The notes beneath the pieces were generated by a model. That model saw only the letters and a program-made list of their open reading frames with translations. It searched no databases and was not told the origin of the DNA. From NCBI RefSeq assembly GCF_002287075.1, contig NZ_NSKE01000011.1:1-64000 (forward strand): a stretch of DNA of 64,000 bases, given 5' to 3'. The DNA is from Fodinibius salipaludis. GTDB taxonomy: Bacteria > Bacteroidota > Rhodothermia > Balneolales > Balneolaceae. How positions within the stretch are numbered: position 1 is the first letter of the stretch; the number at the start of each line of letters is the position of its first letter. Shown here piece after piece: positions 6,068-15,550 of the stretch. The position numbers and the translations under genes are program-made.

Positions 6068-6889
6068 GTGACTGAGCTTGCTAAACGTATTCTATTTGCT
6101 GTCCCGGCTGCGGCTTTCTTTATATTTATTACATGGCTCGGTGATTTTTATTTTGTTGGGTTAATTATTCTTGTGGCCCTTTTTATTCAGCGGGAACTTT
6201 CTATGCTGGCTGCCGGTGCCGGATTTGAACCGGATAATCTTTTCCCGTATACCATTGGCATGTGGATATTATTGAGTCCCTATTTACCTCATGCACTTGC
6301 CATTGGAATGGCTATCTTTTTGCTGTTTATAGCTATTCAGATTTTCAAGTCCGGTGACCATGCTTTAAAGCAGGTAATTGGTACGTTCTTTTGTGGTATT
6401 TATGCACCGCTGGGGTTGTTGGCCATTATTTTGATTAGAAATACAGGTTCTTCGGCTGTTGGTTTTGCTCTAACTATTGGATTACTACTCATGGTATGGG
6501 GGAACGATGTGTTTGCCTACTTCGGGGGTAAATATCTCGGAAAAAAGAAACTGGCGCCTGCAATCAGCCCCAATAAAACCTGGGAAGGATTTTTCTTTGG
6601 AATTCTTGGAGCACTGGTGGGATTGACCATCGCTTATTATGCCGTTCCGGTTGCCCTTTCGGTGTCATTACTTGTGTTAGCTCCGGTTACATTGCTGATC
6701 AGTATATTTGGTCCCATTGGTGACTTGACAGCCAGCAGAATAAAGCGAGTAGCTAATGCCAAAGATGCTTCTGATATTTTGCCGGGGCACGGTGGATTTT
6801 TTGATCGTTTTGATGCTCTCATTTTAGCAAGCCCCGTATTTTACCTTTACTTATACGCACTTCAAATTTTAGGATATGTCTCGTTTTAA
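6068..6889 (+). CDS. cdsA: Phosphatidate cytidylyltransferase
   Basis: Makes CDP-diacylglycerol from phosphatidic acid and CTP, the branch point of phospholipid synthesis. 273 residues with about eight membrane spans. The family signature is intact near the C-terminus: SRIKRVANAKDASDILPGHG followed by GFFDRFDALILASP (about 220-255). The start is GTG. Its end overlaps the next start by 14 bases, indicating translational coupling. Confidence 0.95.
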   Translation: MTELAKRILFAVPAAAFFIFITWLGDFYFVGLIILVALFIQRELSMLAAGAGFEPDNLFPYTIGMWILLSPYLPHALAIGMAIFLLFIAIQIFKSGDHALKQVIGTFFCGIYAPLGLLAIILIRNTGSSAVGFALTIGLLLMVWGNDVFAYFGGKYLGKKKLAPAISPNKTWEGFFFGILGALVGLTIAYYAVPVALSVSLLVLAPVTLLISIFGPIGDLTASRIKRVANAKDASDILPGHGGFFDRFDALILASPVFYLYLYALQILGYVSF

Positions 6890-7907
6890 GCTCGAATATG
6901 AAAAATTAGAACTTGTTCCTTCCCATCCGTTTACAATCGCACGCGGAACTAAAGAAACGGTTCCCAATGTACTGGTGAAGTTAACGGCCGATGGTATTAC
7001 GGGATTGGGAGAAGCTGGTCCCAATAGTCGATATAATGAAGATGCGGATACCGTTATTGCTTTTCTAAAACAACTCCCCGCCTCATTTTTTGATGAGATT
7101 AATTCTGCCGAGGTAGTTTGGGAGAAACTTCAGCAAATAGATCAATCCGTACAGTCGGCAAAGACAGCAGTAGAGATGGCGTGGCTGGATTGGTGGGGCA
7201 AAAGCCAGGGACAACCGCTATGGAAGTTGTGGGATGCTCCCTCACAACAGACGCCTCCGACTTCTTTCACTATTGGCCTTGATGATATTGATGTCATGCA
7301 GCAAAAGGTGGAAGGAGCTAAAGAATATCCCATATTAAAAGTAAAATTAGGAACTGATCGGGATGTAGAAATTATTAAAGGCATTCGCGAAGTATCAGAC
7401 CAGATTATTCGAGTAGATGCCAATGAGGGATGGGCAGATTTAGATACGGCCAAACGGCAGGTTCGTTTTTTAGCAGATCAAAATGTGGAATTTATTGAGC
7501 AGCCTATGCCTGCCTCATGTAAAGAAGAACTGATTCAGTTAAAACAATGGTCACCATTACCCATTATTGCCGATGAAAGTTTTGTAGGCAGAGAGTATAT
7601 GGATGAAATAGCTGATCAGTTTGACGGAATCAATATTAAGCTCCAGAAGGTGGGGAGCTTGGTTGAAGCTTTTAAGCTAATTGATAAGGCCCGTGAGCAA
7701 AATATTGAGGTGATGATTGGATGTATGATCGAAAGTTCTCTGGGGATTGCCGCTGGAGCGTTACTGGGAACATGGGCCGATTATGTAGATCTCGATGGTC
7801 ATTTGTTGATTAGCAACGATCCTTTTTCAGGGTTGACGCTTACTAAGAATAAGGAAGTTCGCCTATCTGATAACCCAGGGTTGGGAATAGAGGAGTCTAA
7901 AAAGTAG
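6876..7907 (+). CDS. Dipeptide epimerase (L-Ala-D/L-Glu epimerase type), enolase superfamily
   Basis: 343 residues of the muconate-lactonizing/AE epimerase group. Catalytic landmarks: KVKLG (KxK, first acid/base Lys), RVDANEGW, EQPMP and ADESF (three metal ligands Asp, Glu, Asp), IKLQKVG (second acid/base Lys), and GCMIESSLGIAAG followed by DLDGHLLI, a combination typical of dipeptide epimerases rather than o-succinylbenzoate synthase. It probably recycles murein L-Ala-D-Glu to L-Ala-L-Glu. It overlaps cdsA by 14 bases and ends the rightward run; the substrate is inferred. Confidence 0.83.
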   Translation: MSRFKLEYEKLELVPSHPFTIARGTKETVPNVLVKLTADGITGLGEAGPNSRYNEDADTVIAFLKQLPASFFDEINSAEVVWEKLQQIDQSVQSAKTAVEMAWLDWWGKSQGQPLWKLWDAPSQQTPPTSFTIGLDDIDVMQQKVEGAKEYPILKVKLGTDRDVEIIKGIREVSDQIIRVDANEGWADLDTAKRQVRFLADQNVEFIEQPMPASCKEELIQLKQWSPLPIIADESFVGREYMDEIADQFDGINIKLQKVGSLVEAFKLIDKAREQNIEVMIGCMIESSLGIAAGALLGTWADYVDLDGHLLISNDPFSGLTLTKNKEVRLSDNPGLGIEESKK

Positions 7908-8018
7908 CGACCTTATCCAGTTAATAAATAAGTCCTACCCAAACTTTTTATTGATCTAATAAAATTAGGGATTTATAATGTAACATACTGCATGCTTTAG
8001 ACTCTTGTAGAGCTGAAA

Positions 8019-8417
8019 GTGAAAATTTCTAAAAATATTAGTCATTACCTTTTAGTATGCAAGAAAAAAAAATATCGCTACAAGCCTATTCCCTTAAAAT
8101 TTTCAGTTAATGTTTTAAAAGAGAATTTAAAAGAAATACCGACTGTACAACGTTGGGCTCGGCAGATGGGGTATTCCCGGTGTTACTTTTCGACTTCTTT
8201 TGCAGAACACTTTGATGAGACTCCGCACGAATGCCTTTCTAGAGTGCGGTATACCCGACTACACAAAGTGATTTTATCTTATCCCCATAAAACCAGTCGG
8301 GCTATTGCTGTAGAAATTGGTTTAAAAGATGACCAAGCCTTGTATAAATTTCTTAACCGACACTTTGATACAAATTTTACGGAAATTCGGAAAAAGTTAT
8401 TGAACGGAGAACAGTAG
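8019..8417 (+). CDS. AraC-type helix-turn-helix regulator, stand-alone DNA-binding domain
   Basis: 132 residues. After a basic N-terminal stretch, residues about 40-127 form a double helix-turn-helix of AraC type: WARQMGYSRCYFSTSFAEHF is the first unit and AIAVEIGLKDDQALYKFLNR the second. No ligand-binding domain is present, so it must respond to something else or act constitutively. The start is GTG. It precedes the peptide/exporter locus and is the obvious candidate to control it, which is inference from position. A second stand-alone AraC protein lies in accessory block 2. Confidence 0.75.
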   Translation: MKISKNISHYLLVCKKKKYRYKPIPLKFSVNVLKENLKEIPTVQRWARQMGYSRCYFSTSFAEHFDETPHECLSRVRYTRLHKVILSYPHKTSRAIAVEIGLKDDQALYKFLNRHFDTNFTEIRKKLLNGEQ

Positions 8418-8584
8418 GAAGTGTGCAGAATTTAGGTTCAGGATAAAAAATAGAATATGCAGCCATTGATTGTTGTAGGTTAGAAGAATTTGCCTAAGTG
8501 CCCTACTTAACCTGTAACATTCAACTTGCAACTTTTAAATAAGGGCTTGTAAATATAGTAACCACAAGAAACTGGACGCTGACG

Positions 8585-8711
8585 ATGAGTACTGACACTC
8601 CAAAACAAAAAGGAGAGACAACTAACAAATTGGATACCGAACTTTCTTGAAGGTACGAATCAAATTTTTGAATATGGAAGTGAACTCATCGAAGGGGTAC
8701 AGAGATGGTGA
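8585..8711 (+). pseudogene. Frameshifted small peptide gene
   Basis: An ATG opens MSTDTPKQKGETTNK and reaches a stop at 8648. One frame over, a sensible continuation reads WIPNFLEGTNQIFEYGSE and ends ...GVQRW with a stop at 8709. Removing one A from the AAA at 8627-8629 joins them into a 41-residue peptide. It could be a recent pseudogene, a programmed slip or a base-call error. No family is recognised. The rest of the 367 bases between the AraC gene and the first leader peptide holds degenerate repeat words near 8510-8540 and no other gene. Confidence 0.4.
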
Positions 8712-8784
8712 TACGCAAATTATTGTGTGGCTTTTTCGGTGAAATATTCTAAAATAAAACTATAATTAAGTTAAGAGGTTTATT

Positions 8785-8985
8785 ATGGAAAAGTTGGCAA
8801 TAGAAAAAATGGAACAAATAGAAGGCGGTAATAAAGACGCGATATTAGGAGGTGCATGTGGATATGCAACCCTTATTGGAATAGGTGTAGCTGGTGCAGC
8901 TACTGGTGGAATAGGTACTGCTGCTGGAATTGCAATCGCAGGGCCAGCATGTGCGGCTGCTGTTGCTGGAGTTGTAGCTACGTAA
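8785..8985 (+). CDS. Double-glycine-leader peptide A (bacteriocin-like)
   Basis: 66 residues. The first 15 (MEKLAIEKMEQIEGG) fit the double-glycine leader pattern: Leu at -12, Met at -7, Ile at -4, GG at -2/-1. Cleavage would release a 51-residue core rich in Gly and Ala with Cys25 and Cys56 (precursor numbering) and GxxxG steps at 22-26, 37-41 and 44-48, a pattern of helices packing in membranes. The core is almost uncharged, unlike typical cationic bacteriocins. An AAGAGG site lies 7 bases before the ATG. The C39 exporter downstream is the expected protease. Function as toxin, signal or partner of peptide B is inference. Confidence 0.8.
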   Translation: MEKLAIEKMEQIEGGNKDAILGGACGYATLIGIGVAGAATGGIGTAAGIAIAGPACAAAVAGVVAT

Positions 8986-9029
8986 ATCCTATCTTCATAT
9001 TTTTAATTCTAATTAAAAATTATTTGATT

Positions 9030-9218
9030 ATGAATACTTTAAGTAAACAACAGATGACACAACTTAGTGGTGGTGATATGTGGGATTTTGTAGATGGCGG
9101 TTGTGCAGTATTTGCGGTTGGTACTGTACTATCTGGCGGTGCTGCTGCTGCTAATCCTGTAGGGGGTACTATCGCAGCTGGTTGTGCTGCTAGACAAGCA
9201 TATAAAGCCTTTAGTTAA
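9030..9218 (+). CDS. Double-glycine-leader peptide B (bacteriocin-like)
   Basis: 62 residues. The leader MNTLSKQQMTQLSGG has the same length and key positions (Leu4, Met9, Leu12, Gly14-Gly15) as peptide A. The 47-residue core starts DMWDFVDGG and has Cys25 and Cys52; Cys25 aligns exactly with Cys25 of peptide A. The middle is Gly/Ala-rich and hydrophobic, the end more polar (RQAYKAFS). A longer reading frame begins upstream at 8856 but its first 58 codons are Trp/Cys-rich antisense-like sequence overlapping peptide A, so the ATG at 9030 is chosen. The pair suggests a two-peptide system. Confidence 0.8.
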   Translation: MNTLSKQQMTQLSGGDMWDFVDGGCAVFAVGTVLSGGAAAANPVGGTIAAGCAARQAYKAFS

Positions 9219-9240
9219 AAATAGGTTAACCATTTATATA

Positions 9241-9275
9241 TCTAATCGGGGGGGATTTGCCTCCGATTAGATTTT
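9241..9275 (+). terminator. Hairpin attenuator between peptide genes and transporter genes
   Basis: Arms TCTAATCGGGGG (9241-9252) and CCTCCGATTAGA (9260-9271) pair over 12 bases with one G-T pair around a 7-base loop, followed by TTTT. It ends only 7 bases before the ATG of the next gene. A partial terminator here would let the two peptides be made in excess of the membrane proteins; it could also restrict ribosome access to that ATG. Confidence 0.75.
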
Positions 9276-9278
9276 ATT

Positions 9279-9920
9279 ATGTATACATTATTTTTTCTTT
9301 TAAAAAAAAGAATTAAATATATATTCGGTAAACAGAGATTACTTTCAACCTTATTTTATTTTTTATTTGTTTGGCTTCCATCTTTAGTTGCTGGCATAAT
9401 TGGAGGGATTAGTTTAGCTAGATTTGAGGTCGGACTTAATGTAGGTTTTTTAGTGTTATCTGCTGTATTCATTAGTTTTATCAATGTCTTTATTAAAACT
9501 AATATTGGATATATAGTAAGGTCTTACCTAGTACTACCAATATCCAAAAAAGTTATTGCTGTTGAACTTATTTTATCTGAGTTATTTAGAGTCCTAAATA
9601 TCGTTTTTTTTGTTTTCACCTCTTCTTATTTTATATCTATATATAATAATTTATTAACAAATTTAATACTCTCCATTCTCTTGTTTGTTTTTATATCTGT
9701 GCTATCAATTTCATTTCGAATATTGGTTAACAGATCTAGTTTGCATTTTGTTACAATTCTATTAATCGTCGGCTTTACATTTTTGTTAAATTATATTACA
9801 AATACATCTTTATTATATATTTCATTTTATAGGGTAATGCTCATAACAATATTAGCTGGGGGAGTTTTTTTCTTATTTAAAAAAGTAATTTTAAAAGGAT
9901 TTTATTTGGAATATTTGTAA
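9279..9920 (+). CDS. ABC-type membrane protein, N-terminal half (DUF5687-like)
   Basis: 213 residues with about six membrane spans and very A+T-rich codons. The segment IVRSYLVLPISKKVIAVELI after the second pair of spans resembles the LPI-(K)-K loop of DUF5687-type permeases of Bacteroidota, which are normally about 490 residues. This protein and the next together would give one such protein (446 residues). The next gene begins one base after its stop in another frame, each with its own ATG. With the ATPase downstream it should form an ABC transporter, perhaps for immunity to or export of the peptides. The family match is from memory and tentative. Confidence 0.65.
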   Translation: MYTLFFLLKKRIKYIFGKQRLLSTLFYFLFVWLPSLVAGIIGGISLARFEVGLNVGFLVLSAVFISFINVFIKTNIGYIVRSYLVLPISKKVIAVELILSELFRVLNIVFFVFTSSYFISIYNNLLTNLILSILLFVFISVLSISFRILVNRSSLHFVTILLIVGFTFLLNYITNTSLLYISFYRVMLITILAGGVFFLFKKVILKGFYLEYL

Positions 9921-9921
9921 G

Positions 9922-10623
9922 ATGAATAAAATGAGCTGGTTATATATTAAAGTGCTATTCAGAAATAAGCGTGCTGTTTTTCAACCTATTAATATTGTTA
10001 TATTTTTTTATATAGGTTTATTTCAATTTGTAGTTGGTGCTGAAAACAATTTATTAATACAGGAAGTGTTAGGGTATTCTCTAGCTATAATTTCAACAGG
10101 TTTATTTTTTACACTACACTCTTATAGATTAGTCAGCATAAATTTTGATGCACTTTCTGTTTGGCCCATCTCATATTCTTCAATAAATCTATCTGTTTGG
10201 TTAATAAGTTTTTATATATCAACTCTTATATTTTTATCCGGTTTTTTGGTATTAGTATTTCTTAACAAATCACTAATATTTGATTTACTTTCATGTTATT
10301 TATTTACCATTGGTGTTTCAAATGTTGCCTATTTAGCTCTCGCTATCCAAGAAGAAAAAAGGTACGATCCTTCTCTAAGTGCTTTTAGTACAAAAGGATC
10401 TAGAGTTAGCCACCCATTTATTAATAATGCAGTCACATTATGTTTAGGGTTATTTGTTTTTTTAGTAAAAATGTTGAGCAATTGGTTCGGAGGTTATCTT
10501 TTTTGGTTTCTTATGAGTTCCGCTGGAGTTGTGGGTTTATTGCTTAATCCAATATTGTTAAAAAAAGTAGATGAGTTTGTTTTGCAACGGAGTTATTTAA
10601 TGAAAGAGGGGTTTAGAAAATAA
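9922..10623 (+). CDS. ABC-type membrane protein, C-terminal half (DUF5687-like)
   Basis: 233 residues with six or so hydrophobic segments. A conserved-looking polar loop (about 135-165, QEEKRYDPSLSAFSTKGSR) separates two membrane groups, and the end LQRSYLMKEGFRK resembles the C-terminus of DUF5687 permeases. Its stop overlaps the ATG of the ATPase gene by one base (TAATG), so the two are translationally coupled. It is read as the second half of a split permease with the gene before it. A+T content is well above the flanking chromosome, which suggests horizontal transfer. Confidence 0.65.
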   Translation: MNKMSWLYIKVLFRNKRAVFQPINIVIFFYIGLFQFVVGAENNLLIQEVLGYSLAIISTGLFFTLHSYRLVSINFDALSVWPISYSSINLSVWLISFYISTLIFLSGFLVLVFLNKSLIFDLLSCYLFTIGVSNVAYLALAIQEEKRYDPSLSAFSTKGSRVSHPFINNAVTLCLGLFVFLVKMLSNWFGGYLFWFLMSSAGVVGLLLNPILLKKVDEFVLQRSYLMKEGFRK

Positions 10624-11321
10624 TGACAATATATTTTAACAACGTAACAAAAACCTATAAGGATTTTTCTTTATCAATTCCAGAATTACATATAAAAACT
10701 GGCGAAGTTGTAAAACTATTTGGAAAAAATGGGGCAGGAAAAACAACTCTGCTTCGTTTGATAGTTGATCTTGTTGAGGTAGAAAACGGTATTGTGACTA
10801 TAGATGGTATGGAGACTTCAAAAACGGCAGCCTGGAAGAAGTCTACAGCATGTTTTTTGGATGATTCATTTTTGATAAAGTATCTTGAAGTGCAGGAATA
10901 TTATAAACTACTTTATAATTTTTATAGTATTCCTTCAAAAAGTGCTTCGGAAGTCAATGAACTAGCAGGTAACTTTTTAGATATGTATTCATTAAAAGAT
11001 AAGAGAATAGAAAATTTGTCAACTGGTAATCAAGTAAAGGTAGGGGTTTTAGGCACTTTATTAGTTGAACCAAAATTACTTATTCTAGATGAACCAATTG
11101 CAAATCTTGATCCAGAATCTAGAATAATACTTATATCGTTGTTAAAAAGATATAAAGCAAATAATGATTGTACAATAATATTATCAAGTCATGACCTTAA
11201 TGTTACAAACAGAATAACTGGCAGATCTATTATATTAGATAATGGGGCGATTAAATATGATCAATATGATCAAAAAAATAATCTGGAAAAAATCCAACAA
11301 CACTTTAATAATAGTTTATAG
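10623..11321 (+). CDS. ABC transporter ATP-binding protein
   Basis: 232 residues, one nucleotide-binding domain: Walker A GKNGAGKTT (34-42), signature LSTGN (132-136, in place of LSGGQ), Walker B KLLILDEP (151-158) and the switch His190. The Q-loop position is occupied by LDDSFL, with no Gln visible. It is coupled to the preceding membrane proteins and should power them. In peptide loci such a separate ABC system usually protects the producer; the C39 exporter downstream is a better candidate for secretion. That division of labour is inference. Confidence 0.9.
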   Translation: MTIYFNNVTKTYKDFSLSIPELHIKTGEVVKLFGKNGAGKTTLLRLIVDLVEVENGIVTIDGMETSKTAAWKKSTACFLDDSFLIKYLEVQEYYKLLYNFYSIPSKSASEVNELAGNFLDMYSLKDKRIENLSTGNQVKVGVLGTLLVEPKLLILDEPIANLDPESRIILISLLKRYKANNDCTIILSSHDLNVTNRITGRSIILDNGAIKYDQYDQKNNLEKIQQHFNNSL

Positions 11322-11352
11322 TATTTGATTTTTATTTTTCAGTTATATTTTT

Positions 11353-12033
11353 ATGGTTGGTATGATAAATCATTTATTTGATAGAATGAAAATTTCTATT
11401 AACCGATGTAACGGTTGGATAATATTCAGTATAGTAGTTTTTATATATTTATTGTTTTCTGTAATAATCGATCAGTATATCTTTGGCAAAGAGGTGTATA
11501 TTCGCAGTTTTTCTGACCAGCTTACGCAGGAAAGCCTTGAAGCGATGTTAGGTTTTCAGGAACGTTACTGGTGGTTTGGCTATGTATTCACCCCCTTGTT
11601 ACTTCTTATAAAACTGTCCTTTGCAACCGTTTGTATCAGTATTGGCACTGTTTTATCAAACGTAGAGTTCCACTTTAAAAATATTTTTAAAGTGGTCCTT
11701 TTGGCTGAAGTAGTTTTTATTGTGGCACAGACTTTGTACTTAGTTAACCTTTCTTTTCACTTAGATACCCTTACTTTGGAAACAGCTTCTAATTACTATC
11801 CTTTAACAATTCTAAGCTATTTTGGTACCGAAAATGTGGTACAGTGGCTGCAATACCCGCTCCAAACCTTAAACCTGTTTGAGGTTGCTTATATAGTTGT
11901 TATCAGTTGGCTGCTTTCGAAGCAGTGGAAGGAAGATTTTGCGGAGAGCATGTTAGTTGTTTTACCGTCTTATGCAACGGGGCTTATTCTGTGGCTGGTG
12001 TTTGTAGCTTTTATAACCCTGCAAGTGAGCTGA
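11353..12033 (+). CDS. Five-span membrane protein of unknown function
   Basis: 226 residues, not recognised as a named family. Predicted spans at about 22-42, 75-100, 112-130, 168-185 and 205-224; the loop between spans 1 and 2 is polar (YIRSFSDQLTQESLEAMLGF) and the one before span 4 is aromatic. Base composition rises in G+C compared with the three genes before it, so the locus is a mosaic. By position it may be an immunity or maturation factor for the peptides, but nothing in the sequence proves this. Confidence 0.7.
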   Translation: MVGMINHLFDRMKISINRCNGWIIFSIVVFIYLLFSVIIDQYIFGKEVYIRSFSDQLTQESLEAMLGFQERYWWFGYVFTPLLLLIKLSFATVCISIGTVLSNVEFHFKNIFKVVLLAEVVFIVAQTLYLVNLSFHLDTLTLETASNYYPLTILSYFGTENVVQWLQYPLQTLNLFEVAYIVVISWLLSKQWKEDFAESMLVVLPSYATGLILWLVFVAFITLQVS

Positions 12034-12174
12034 TTTTAGTGAGCAGTTATACAGTGACAGTGTGACAAGGTACAAGAAGCAGGATGCAAGAATTCAAAAT
12101 TCATCGAGCGCTGATGACTTTTCTAATCAATAACTTAACTACTCTTACTTTCGACTTTAGACTCAAAAATAATC

Positions 12175-12693
12175 ATGAAACGGAAACTGGCTTTTATTTT
12201 TCTACTGTTTATTATAGGTGCTATTGGTTACCTGGGATTCTCAATTTATGATCAACTGCAAGAAAAACAGGTTGTTAAAGAACGCATAGCACAAGTACCT
12301 GAGTTTACAGCTATTGGCTTGGATGGCAGGGTTATTCAAAGTAATAACTTTGTAAGAAAAGCTCCTTTTATTCTTACCTACTTTAATACCGGATGCGAGT
12401 TTTGTCGGGCAGAGATACGCAGCATAAAAAGTCACAGATCATTGCAAGAACGTGCTATGATTTATCTGATCTCCGATGAGCCTGCCAGGGTTTTGAAACA
12501 ATTTAGGAACAAACTTGAGTTGGATTCGCTACAGAAGATAAAAGTACTACAGGATTCCACTGCCGAAGTTAAAGAATTGTTTGGGGTAAAAGGAGTGCCA
12601 AATACATTTGTATATAACCGAGAGGGCAAGCTACTGAAGAACTTTCAGGGTGAAACTAAGGCTGAAATACTGTACAAGTTGGTGAAGAAATAA
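12175..12693 (+). CDS. Membrane-anchored TlpA/thioredoxin-like protein
   Basis: 172 residues. An uncleaved N-terminal anchor (about 5-25) is followed by a thioredoxin fold facing the periplasm: active site CEFC (Cys74, Cys77) after YFNTG, and the cis-Pro loop VPNTF (Pro142). It should make, reduce or shuffle disulfides. Because both peptide cores of this locus have two cysteines and a MauE-like protein is encoded nearby, I infer a role in their disulfide formation. The 141 bases before it contain only degenerate repeat words. Confidence 0.8.
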   Translation: MKRKLAFIFLLFIIGAIGYLGFSIYDQLQEKQVVKERIAQVPEFTAIGLDGRVIQSNNFVRKAPFILTYFNTGCEFCRAEIRSIKSHRSLQERAMIYLISDEPARVLKQFRNKLELDSLQKIKVLQDSTAEVKELFGVKGVPNTFVYNREGKLLKNFQGETKAEILYKLVKK

Positions 12694-12802
12694 GCCATGG
12701 ATCTGTACGGATTAGAAATGGATTTCTCGTGCTTCCGTGCTTGGGTGGTTTGTATGATTTGCCCTAAGAAACAGAAATTTTAAGAGCAATCAAGTTGTCG
12801 AG

Positions 12803-14998
12803 ATGTGGGATAATAACTCAAATTTAAAAAAGAGAGCCAAAGAAGCATTTGTACGTCAGCAAGACCAGTCGGATTGTGGTGTGGCTTGTCTGTTAAGTGT
12901 CATTAATTTTTTAGGCGGAACTTCGAAGCTGGAACGTCTTAGGGAGTTGAGTGGTACCAGTAAACAGGGTACAACCTTACTGGGTTTATATCAATCCGCA
13001 GATAAAGTAGGCTTAAAAGCGGAGGCTTACGAAGCCGATTTGGAAAATCTTAAAAAACAGACCGATCCCTGCATTCTACATATTGTTAAAGATGAACGCC
13101 TGCAGCATTATATTATTTTTTACGGCATTAAAGATGGGCAGTTTATTATTAGCGACCCGGCCGAAGGGGTGAAGCTGGTATCACCAAAGGAGATTGAAAA
13201 GCTCTGGAAAAGCAAGGCATTGTTGTTACTAAAACCTGGAGAAGATTTCACCACTGTTGATGAAAAGAAAAAATACCAGTGGCAATGGATCAAACAACTG
13301 ACAAAAGAAGATCTGAATATCTTGAGCCTGGCCTTGGTACTGGGAATTTTTGTATCAGTGTTGAGTTTAGCTACGGCTATTTTTTCTCAAAAGTTAATTG
13401 ATGAAATACTGCCGGGAGAAGACACCTTAAAATTATTTGTAGGGCTTGGTCTTCTTGCATTCCTACTTTTTGCTAAGAGCGGACTTTCCTATGTGCGACA
13501 GCTTTTTTTAATTCGTCAGAGCCGGGATTTTAATAACCGTATTATTAATACCTTTTACAGTTCACTATTAAAATTGCCGGTTCCCTTTTTCTTTAATAGA
13601 AAAACGGGCGACCTTATTGCCCGAATGAACGATACACGTCGACTGCAACGTACGATCACCTATATTTTTAGTGAAGTAATGATAGATGTGCTACTTATTA
13701 TAGTAGCCTCTGTTTTTATTATGACTTATTCAATTAATCTGGGTTTTTTTGTACTGCTTAGTGTGCCCCTGTTTTTTCTACTGACCTGGCAATATAATGA
13801 GCCTATACTGAAAGGTCAGCAAGATGTAATGAAGGCGCATTCAGCCAATGAAAGTAATTACGTGGATACGATACAAGGCATTGCAACAATTAAAACCGGG
13901 AATCGAGAACCCTTTTTTTCCAAGATTACTAAAAAGATCTATGGTTTTTTTCAGGATCAGATATTTGATCTTGGAAAAGTGGGAATAAAGTTTACCTTTT
14001 GGGCTGATATTATCAGTGCATTTTATATGGTCGGGGTGCTGGGCATTTCTTCTATGTTGGTTCTGCAAGATGAGCTATTAGTTGGGGCATTAGTGGCTAT
14101 TTTTCAGATGAGTAGTCAGCTTATTCCTTCTGCTAACCGGCTTGCTTTAACAAATATCAGACTGCAGGAAGCAAGAGTTGCTTTTGATCGGATGTATGAG
14201 TTCACCTCCTTAGAACCGGAATACAACAAAAAACCGGAAATAAAGAATAAGTTAGAGAATGACAAAGTTGAAAGTATTCACGTATCTGATTTATCATTCC
14301 GATTTCCCGGGCGCAGTCCTTTATTAAAGGATATTTCGTTTGCTGTTGAGAAAGGAGAAATGATTGCTCTGCTGGGGGAAAGTGGCTGCGGAAAGACAAC
14401 AATGTTGCAGATTTTACAACGTTTTTACGAACCGGAAAGTGGAAGCTTAAAAATTAATGAAAATATAGGATGGGGAGAACTGTCAGTTAAAAGCTGGCGG
14501 AATCACCTTGCTTCTGTTCCGCAGGATATTAAAATATTTAGCGGCACTTTGTTGGATAATATCTGTTTGGGAGATGTACAGGAAGAAGACGTTGAACAAG
14601 TTATTGAATTTTGTAAAGAGTATGGTTTTAGTAAATACTTTGAGGAATTTCCTCAGCAGTACGCAACTATATTGGGAGAAGAAGGAACAAACATTTCAGG
14701 AGGACAACAGCAGCTGGTTGCGTTGGCTCGTGCACTATATCAAGAACCGGACTTGTTATTACTCGATGAGGCGACGTCAGCAATGGACCGTGAAACGGAA
14801 CAGGGTATGCTTCAAATGTTAATGGAGTCTAAAAAAGAAATGGGGATAATTTTAGTTACTCATCGTATTAAGAGTGTTAAATTAGCTGATCGAATTTATA
14901 TTCTTAATGAGGGTAAAATTACGGAGCAAGGAAGTCCTCAGGAGTTAGCTACGGGACAAAATTTGTTCTCCCGTTCTCTGGAGGAGTTATCAGTATAG
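12803..14998 (+). CDS. Peptidase-containing ABC transporter (C39 peptidase, PCAT type)
   Basis: 731 residues in three parts. Residues 15-150: C39 peptidase with oxyanion Gln19, catalytic Cys25 (QDQSDCGVACL), His102 and Asp118, all present. About 165-440: six-span ABC exporter membrane domain. About 480-731: ATPase with Walker A GESGCGKTT near 525, signature NISGGQQQL near 630 and Walker B LLLLDEATSAMD near 651. Such proteins cut leaders after GG while exporting the core, matching peptides A and B. No HlyD-like adaptor or outer-membrane channel is encoded here, so any such partner must come from elsewhere. Confidence 0.95.
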   Translation: MWDNNSNLKKRAKEAFVRQQDQSDCGVACLLSVINFLGGTSKLERLRELSGTSKQGTTLLGLYQSADKVGLKAEAYEADLENLKKQTDPCILHIVKDERLQHYIIFYGIKDGQFIISDPAEGVKLVSPKEIEKLWKSKALLLLKPGEDFTTVDEKKKYQWQWIKQLTKEDLNILSLALVLGIFVSVLSLATAIFSQKLIDEILPGEDTLKLFVGLGLLAFLLFAKSGLSYVRQLFLIRQSRDFNNRIINTFYSSLLKLPVPFFFNRKTGDLIARMNDTRRLQRTITYIFSEVMIDVLLIIVASVFIMTYSINLGFFVLLSVPLFFLLTWQYNEPILKGQQDVMKAHSANESNYVDTIQGIATIKTGNREPFFSKITKKIYGFFQDQIFDLGKVGIKFTFWADIISAFYMVGVLGISSMLVLQDELLVGALVAIFQMSSQLIPSANRLALTNIRLQEARVAFDRMYEFTSLEPEYNKKPEIKNKLENDKVESIHVSDLSFRFPGRSPLLKDISFAVEKGEMIALLGESGCGKTTMLQILQRFYEPESGSLKINENIGWGELSVKSWRNHLASVPQDIKIFSGTLLDNICLGDVQEEDVEQVIEFCKEYGFSKYFEEFPQQYATILGEEGTNISGGQQQLVALARALYQEPDLLLLDEATSAMDRETEQGMLQMLMESKKEMGIILVTHRIKSVKLADRIYILNEGKITEQGSPQELATGQNLFSRSLEELSV

Positions 14999-15088
14999 GG
15001 CTAATTTGTTGAAACCTATATAATAATAGAAAGATTATTAGGAAAGATGTCAGAAAATGGGGGCGTTTTATATAAATTGCTGAAACGC

Positions 15089-15550
15089 TTATATAGATGC
15101 TTTATCTGATATTTTTGGTTTCGAAGTAGAAAGCAAGTATGCTATAATAATTAAAGCTATTAGTATTAAATTTCTAAGCAGGGTAAATTCCAGTCCCGAT
15201 GCAAAACCAAAAGCGCCAAAGCAGCCGCAATTTTCTACTGACATCCCCTGAAAATAAAAGTAGGATAGCACAGAAGAGAAGCTGATGAGCATAGCTAACG
15301 TGCCTGACAGAGCCCATTTTAAAAATTTATTCCAGATTAGAAATACAGCCAGCACGAGTTCAATAATGGATGTTGCAATTACAATAGCAGTTGCGTACTC
15401 AATGAGCCAGTAAAATTCGGTAGCCAGCAGTTCTACCAGATATCGGGCATCGGAGCCGCTGATGAGTTTTCCTATTCCTGAAATCAAGAATAGAATACCC
15501 AAGAGTAAACGAATAACTGTTATTGCTTTACTGAGATATGATTTATTCAT
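15089..15550 (-). CDS. MauE/DoxX-like membrane protein
   Basis: 153 residues with four spans (about 8-25, 47-70, 78-100, 122-142). ENCGCFGAFG (Cys108, Cys110) is the CxCFG motif of the MauE-like branch of the DoxX family, thought to pass electrons or disulfides to a periplasmic thioredoxin. It runs convergently to the C39 exporter, 90 bases away, so it has its own promoter. Together with the TlpA-like protein it would make a thiol-oxidation pair for the cysteine-containing peptides; this link is inferred from gene order. Confidence 0.8.
   Translation of the reverse strand: MNKSYLSKAITVIRLLLGILFLISGIGKLISGSDARYLVELLATEFYWLIEYATAIVIATSIIELVLAVFLIWNKFLKWALSGTLAMLISFSSVLSYFYFQGMSVENCGCFGAFGFASGLEFTLLRNLILIALIIIAYLLSTSKPKISDKASI

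Follow-up and report, generated by a model that had tools for sequence, protein, structure and literature searches.

Two adjacent short genes near the start of a contig of Fodinibius salipaludis encode peptides with double-glycine (GG) leaders, and they raise the question of what the peptides do and which machinery would mature and export them. The window, meaning the whole stretch of DNA analysed, comprises positions 1-64000 of contig NZ_NSKE01000011.1 (genome 3.58 Mb). A sequence-only reading of this window had proposed a bacteriocin or signalling-peptide system served by an ATP-binding cassette (ABC) exporter with a C39 peptidase domain. Sequence comparison, together with analogy to characterised systems, makes it likely that the genes form a two-peptide bacteriocin locus, carried on a 7.1-kb island and built round a maturation module of the bacteroidetocin (class IIf) type.

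The maturation module and its relatives

Bacteroidetocin loci consist of a five-transmembrane (five-TM) protein, a peptide with a 15-amino-acid (aa) GG leader, a thiol oxidoreductase and a C39 transporter, according to Coyne et al. 2019 (PMC6671954). Toxin activity drops when either the TM protein or the oxidoreductase is deleted, neither confers immunity, and in E. coli these four genes are enough; cutting at the GG is backed by mass spectrometry, and cutting, disulfide formation and killing are shown or supported (PMC6671954). Scanning genomes with a Bacteroidales five-TM protein retrieved Bacteroides oleiciplenus and Hallella colorans, and these are the two species that the legend to the published family figure gives by full name (PMC6671954). 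Profiles built from window-type loci only matched both loci with the exporter (B. oleiciplenus, E = 1.6e-154; H. colorans, 4e-145), the thioredoxin (3.9e-15 and 1.3e-13, respectively) and the five-TM protein (B. oleiciplenus, 2.9e-10; H. colorans, two pieces, 1.3e-7 and 1.3e-4). The two H. colorans pieces (locus L123, 4095-6405) lie around a 412-aa minus-strand open reading frame (ORF), and an insertion may have disrupted that locus. When 36 C39 exporters were placed in a tree, a single branch (100/99) split the 23 from TM-protein loci from the 13 without the TM protein; the window exporter fell within the TM-protein group, with those of genomes G010, G028 and G066 as its closest kin. The tree is unrooted and built from 36 chosen sequences, and describes a common lineage inside this sample, not the limits of that lineage. 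Since window-type profiles recover the B. oleiciplenus and H. colorans loci and the exporters share one side of the 100/99 branch, the machinery is of bacteroidetocin type; by these profile and tree comparisons, the window's five-TM/thioredoxin/C39 set is homologous to the bacteroidetocin module. The sequence-only reading, which could name no matching family and called the locus undescribed, needs revision to this extent: the core machinery was already described for bacteroidetocins, and it is the peptide pair and an accompanying ABC trio that differ from the published description of bacteroidetocins A and B.

The C39 exporter aligned with PCAT1 over nearly its full length (E 7e-107), and its residues Q19, C25, H102 and D118, invariant among exporter orthologues, line up with the PCAT1 protease residues, bearing out the complete catalytic triad claimed earlier. 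ComA structures were also among its matches. The thioredoxin likewise has the membrane anchor expected of it, an N-terminal TM segment, and a CxxC motif (C74, C77). Five TM segments were predicted in the third protein, a further gene that the earlier reading had left unnamed; its structure model was unusable (mean predicted local distance difference test score 46). These comparisons support the proposed bacteriocin-type system, in which peptides would be cut at the GG, oxidised and exported. All features are collected in Table 1.

Table 1. Genes of the island, with their positions in the window and the evidence for each assignment
Feature	Position	Strand	Evidence
Stand-alone AraC-type helix-turn-helix (HTH) regulator, 132 aa, GTG start	8019..8417	+	PF12833, 41.2 bits
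Precursor peptide 1, 66 aa: leader MEKLAIEKMEQIEGG (15 aa, GG, 8785-8829) and 51-aa core	8785..8985	+	Gapless G091 homologue, core z 9.4
Precursor peptide 2, 62 aa: leader MNTLSKQQMTQLSGG (15 aa, GG, 9030-9074) and 47-aa core	9030..9218	+	Gapless G091 homologue, core z 14.6
TMA, 6-TM permease-like, putative immunity ABC subunit	9279..9920	+	TM count; 27% identical to G091 counterpart, z 7.7; no match in Pfam search
TMB, 5-TM or 6-TM permease-like, putative immunity ABC subunit	9922..10623	+	37% identical to G091 counterpart, z 30
ABC ATPase, putative immunity ABC subunit	10623..11321	+	PF00005; 51% to G091 ATPase, 29-35% to ATPases of other loci
Five-TM protein, homologous to the TM protein that bacteroidetocin production requires	11353..12033	+	Profile matches, TM prediction; role taken from PMC6671954
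Membrane-anchored thioredoxin-like (ResA/TlpA-type) thiol oxidoreductase, CEFC	12175..12693	+	Family match, one N-terminal TM segment
C39-peptidase ABC exporter (PCAT)	12803..14998	+	Domain match, PCAT1 alignment, tree

The five-TM protein was detected in 8/128 genomes of the order and in 27/394 across the phylum, the latter figure including paralogues without an exporter (at L082, L086, L091, L092, L095 and L097, five-TM relatives without a C39 exporter stand among unrelated genes and were treated as such). At most exporter-bearing loci, the five-TM, thioredoxin and C39 genes lie close to one another, and such groups were seen in the window's own order, in a different family of the same class and in Bacteroidales. 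The bacteroidetocin machinery extends well past gut Bacteroidales within Bacteroidota. The expected recurrence of the gene set in related genomes was borne out: rather than always occurring without the C39 exporter, window-family peptides were found in 7 of the 128 genomes of the order, all 7 among the 8 with the TM-protein module (hypergeometric P 8e-11, relatedness not corrected). The contig of the eighth (G085) stops just upstream of the ABC gene.

A pattern search at 26 module loci gave 39 candidate GG peptides, of which 38 have a 15-aa leader, a count partly built in because the pattern permits only 14-16 residues; the count of cores with 2 or 4 cysteines (36/39) is not. The cores form two groups, a charged four-Cys KFWG-type (H. 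colorans, B. oleiciplenus, L093, L096 and L098) versus a hydrophobic, Gly/Ala-rich and mostly two-Cys type, to which the window pair belongs. The exporter module that serves the first type also serves this second, large group. With class IIf the window peptides share a 15-16-aa GG leader and at least two cysteines. They lack its basic four-Cys core, having two cysteines and charges of 0 and -1, unlike KFWG-type cores, a separation from bacteroidetocins A and B that is drawn from the published description and not from the A/B sequences. Other module loci show further arrangements. In L116 (G599, Bacteroidales, 9512-11418), a single module is surrounded by four near-copies of one GG peptide, each with a 15-aa leader and four or five Cys. 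Between the thioredoxin and C39 genes, L074 (G102, 7512-9005) carries a glycosyltransferase-like gene (UDPGT/EryCIII-like C-terminal) and L085 (G151, 8421-9263) a DUF6625 gene, and the cores of both are possibly modified. In a plasmid collection, the module was found only on a Flammeovirga plasmid (L115, Flammeovirga pectinis, NZ_CP034564.1), where it and a 15-aa-leader GG peptide stand beside GLPGLI, LanC-like and glycosyltransferase genes. The collection also held a Phocaeicola match of the HlyD/TolC type, with its exporter on the other side of the tree branch, and an unannotated B. uniformis record with a near-identical exporter start; a Phocaeicola salanitronis plasmid encodes a C39 exporter almost identical to that of G606, a genome from the same phylum.

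The peptide pair and the ABC trio

Both short genes have the 15-residue GG leaders first read from the sequence, and their cores are indeed nearly uncharged and Gly/Ala-rich (charge 0 and Gly+Ala 55% for core 1; -1 and 43% for core 2). Each core has two cysteines, at core positions 10 and 41 in core 1 and 10 and 37 in core 2, placing the second Cys 27-31 residues after the first. When 64-kb windows were codon-shuffled, a short ORF with the 15-aa leader pattern appeared in 1/20, and the homologues of the real peptides in other genomes are all accompanied by the same machinery; on these two grounds the peptide genes are more than chance. The cores do not resemble each other (z 0.3). An excess of GxxxG motifs was looked for and not found relative to shuffled cores (three in peptide 1, 2.4 expected; none in peptide 2). 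A low-confidence model of peptide 1 (mean 66), with helices at 4-40 and 44-65, is a hint only. A PHROGs search gave no matches.

Counterparts of both peptides were found, in the same order, in G091, a genome of another genus. Each core matched its own counterpart without gaps, and cross-matches stayed at background (z 0.6-0.7). Outside the window, the pair was found only in G091, which alone also has close counterparts of the ABC trio (Table 1). The nearest kin of the window exporter lies in G010, where the island encodes only one peptide, of another kind, and another pump. In a second case, a peptide type (66%) and a small membrane protein (53%) are common to G036 and G066. The G+C content of the trio is 24-29% versus 42% for the window. 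The sharing of trio and pair with G091, the exporter's kinship with G010, the G036/G066 case and the low G+C of the trio suggest that peptide genes travel with their matching protection gene, as a single cassette that enters a maturation module already in place. The trio is probably devoted to self-immunity, and more likely serves protection than export; the sole observation bearing on an immunity role like that of LanFEG is that trio and pair co-segregate. The second ABC system of the sequence-only reading is real in its ATPase, and is better described as a single ATPase accompanied by two separate permease-like proteins, each with 5-6 TM segments.

The island, its empty site and MauE

The island lies between an enolase-superfamily-like gene (6876-7907, a label read from sequence only) and a MauE gene (15089-15550, minus strand). 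In six genomes of the same genus (G001, G002, G004, G005, G008 and G009) the site is empty, the upstream enzyme gene standing directly before MauE and an epimerase gene; G010 has an island in the same slot. In G003 the slot lacks an exporter module; it contains a transposase-like gene, an ABC trio of another kind and an AraC gene (73% identical), and is likely an island remnant. This remnant (L177, 4931-10888) keeps its pump, which resembles that of G102 (ATPase 63%).

The MauE-like protein had been counted among the locus genes, and was considered as an oxidation partner. The gene is present as read; across the genus it adjoins the epimerase gene in 12/12 genomes, including six that lack the island, and was rejected as a resident neighbour outside the system. 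The AraC-type HTH protein at the other end, present as the earlier reading had it, is probably the locus regulator, and AraC-type genes are also present in the loci of G010, G028, G036, G066, G102 and G091.

Readings of the locus and known systems

In the two-peptide bacteriocin locus that we favour, the AraC-type protein would turn the genes on, and the C39 domain would cut both precursors after the GG, the exporter carrying the cores over the inner membrane, as homology to PCAT1 and ComA and the bacteroidetocins suggest. The anchored thioredoxin may form one disulfide per core, joining the halves of a helical hairpin. By analogy with a bacteroidetocin, for which this was shown, the five-TM protein would be required for production or release. 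Both cores together would attack the envelope of related bacteria, and the TMA/TMB/ATPase pump would clear them from the producer's own membrane; antibacterial activity of both peptides is probable by analogy. The target of bacteroidetocins is BamA (PMC8546649). The locus offers no HlyD/TolC partner for outer-membrane passage: a search of the window's contig gave no Biotin_lipoyl_2 match, and the locus genes include no HlyD-type adaptor. Bacteroidetocins present the same gap, and their authors left lysis as a possible release route (PMC6671954). We tentatively go further, with rather less than even confidence, and suggest a distinct Gram-negative two-peptide class: disulfide-tied, uncharged, Gly/Ala-rich hairpins that need each other, matured by bacteroidetocin machinery and covered by a dedicated immunity pump, with peptides and pump exchanged as one cassette while the module stays.

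Several observations weigh against the favoured reading. A family search of both peptides gave nothing above cut-offs, the pair as a unit is met in a single other genome, and many sister loci have a single peptide. The five-TM gene of G091 is split over two frames, by a broken gene or an assembly error. Bacteroidetocins reportedly have no immunity gene, which makes such a role of the trio unprecedented in that family (PMC6671954). The sister loci with one or several unlike peptides (one in G036, three in G066, four near-copies in G599) and the dissimilarity of the two window cores would also suit two independent, bacteroidetocin-like bacteriocins, each active alone, that share one exporter and are neighbours by chance. 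We regard this as unlikely, if still a serious competitor, given that the same pair, order and ABC trio recur in another genus and that two-peptide bacteriocins themselves have unlike partner cores.

The peptides might instead be exported signals that kill nothing and are perceived by way of the AraC-type regulator or some other sensor: the regulator gene adjoins the peptide genes, and C39 exporters with GG leaders also serve pheromones such as the ComA substrate. However, the regulator is an HTH without a sensor domain, no histidine kinase is found among the locus genes, the hydrophobic cores, at 47-51 residues, are long for pheromones and are accompanied by a peptide-specific pump, as self-protection predicts, and the nearest characterised systems kill, so that signalling appears improbable. 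Equally improbable to us is that the peptides are precursors of ribosomally synthesised and post-translationally modified peptides, with core modifications beyond the disulfide. The UDP-glycosyltransferase-like, DUF6625 and LanC-like genes at related loci and a weak, below-cut-off TIGR04149 match of the peptide 2 leader hint at it, yet no modification enzyme lies within the island here.

Among open-access papers, we found nothing relevant on Balneolaceae bacteriocins or on two-peptide Bacteroidota bacteriocins, and the closest comparisons are with better-known systems. Class IIb two-peptide bacteriocins of Gram-positive bacteria also have two adjacent GG-leader precursors with mutually unlike, hydrophobic, Gly-rich cores and a shared exporter. 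The window differs in its 15-aa leader, Cys pair, oxidoreductase and Bacteroidota host and in showing no clear GxxxG excess over shuffled cores, and class IIb immunity is usually one small protein. Colicin V and class II microcin export (CvaB, HlyD-type CvaA and TolC) likewise combines a C39 exporter with a GG leader in a Gram-negative, whereas the window locus has no HlyD-type adaptor and the exporter of the HlyD/TolC-bearing Phocaeicola plasmid lies across the tree branch. LanFEG lantibiotic self-protection pumps resemble the trio in having one ATPase and two separate 5-6-TM proteins of ~220 aa beside peptide genes, and against TIGR03740 (lantibiotic protection) the window ATPase scores 100 bits, which is under that model's cut-off; unlike LanFEG, the permease-like proteins match no family, there are no lanthipeptide genes, and the pump function is putative. 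Nearest are the bacteroidetocins, in which a 15-aa GG leader precedes a core of ~40-50 residues, the cysteines are paired, and the set of five-TM protein, thiol oxidoreductase and C39 exporter is shared with the window. As published, they have a single core that is basic and holds four Cys (net charge +6 and +2), and the A/B regions consist of four genes with no immunity gene (PMC6671954), unlike the two dissimilar cores, the ABC trio and the AraC-type regulator here. The peptide/pump cassette would supply candidates for immunity genes in a family that reportedly had none in its first members (PMC6671954). New relative to the bacteroidetocins are the predicted two-peptide unit, kept in the same order in one other genus, the uncharged Gly/Ala-rich two-Cys cores, the ABC trio travelling with the pair and the AraC-type regulator.

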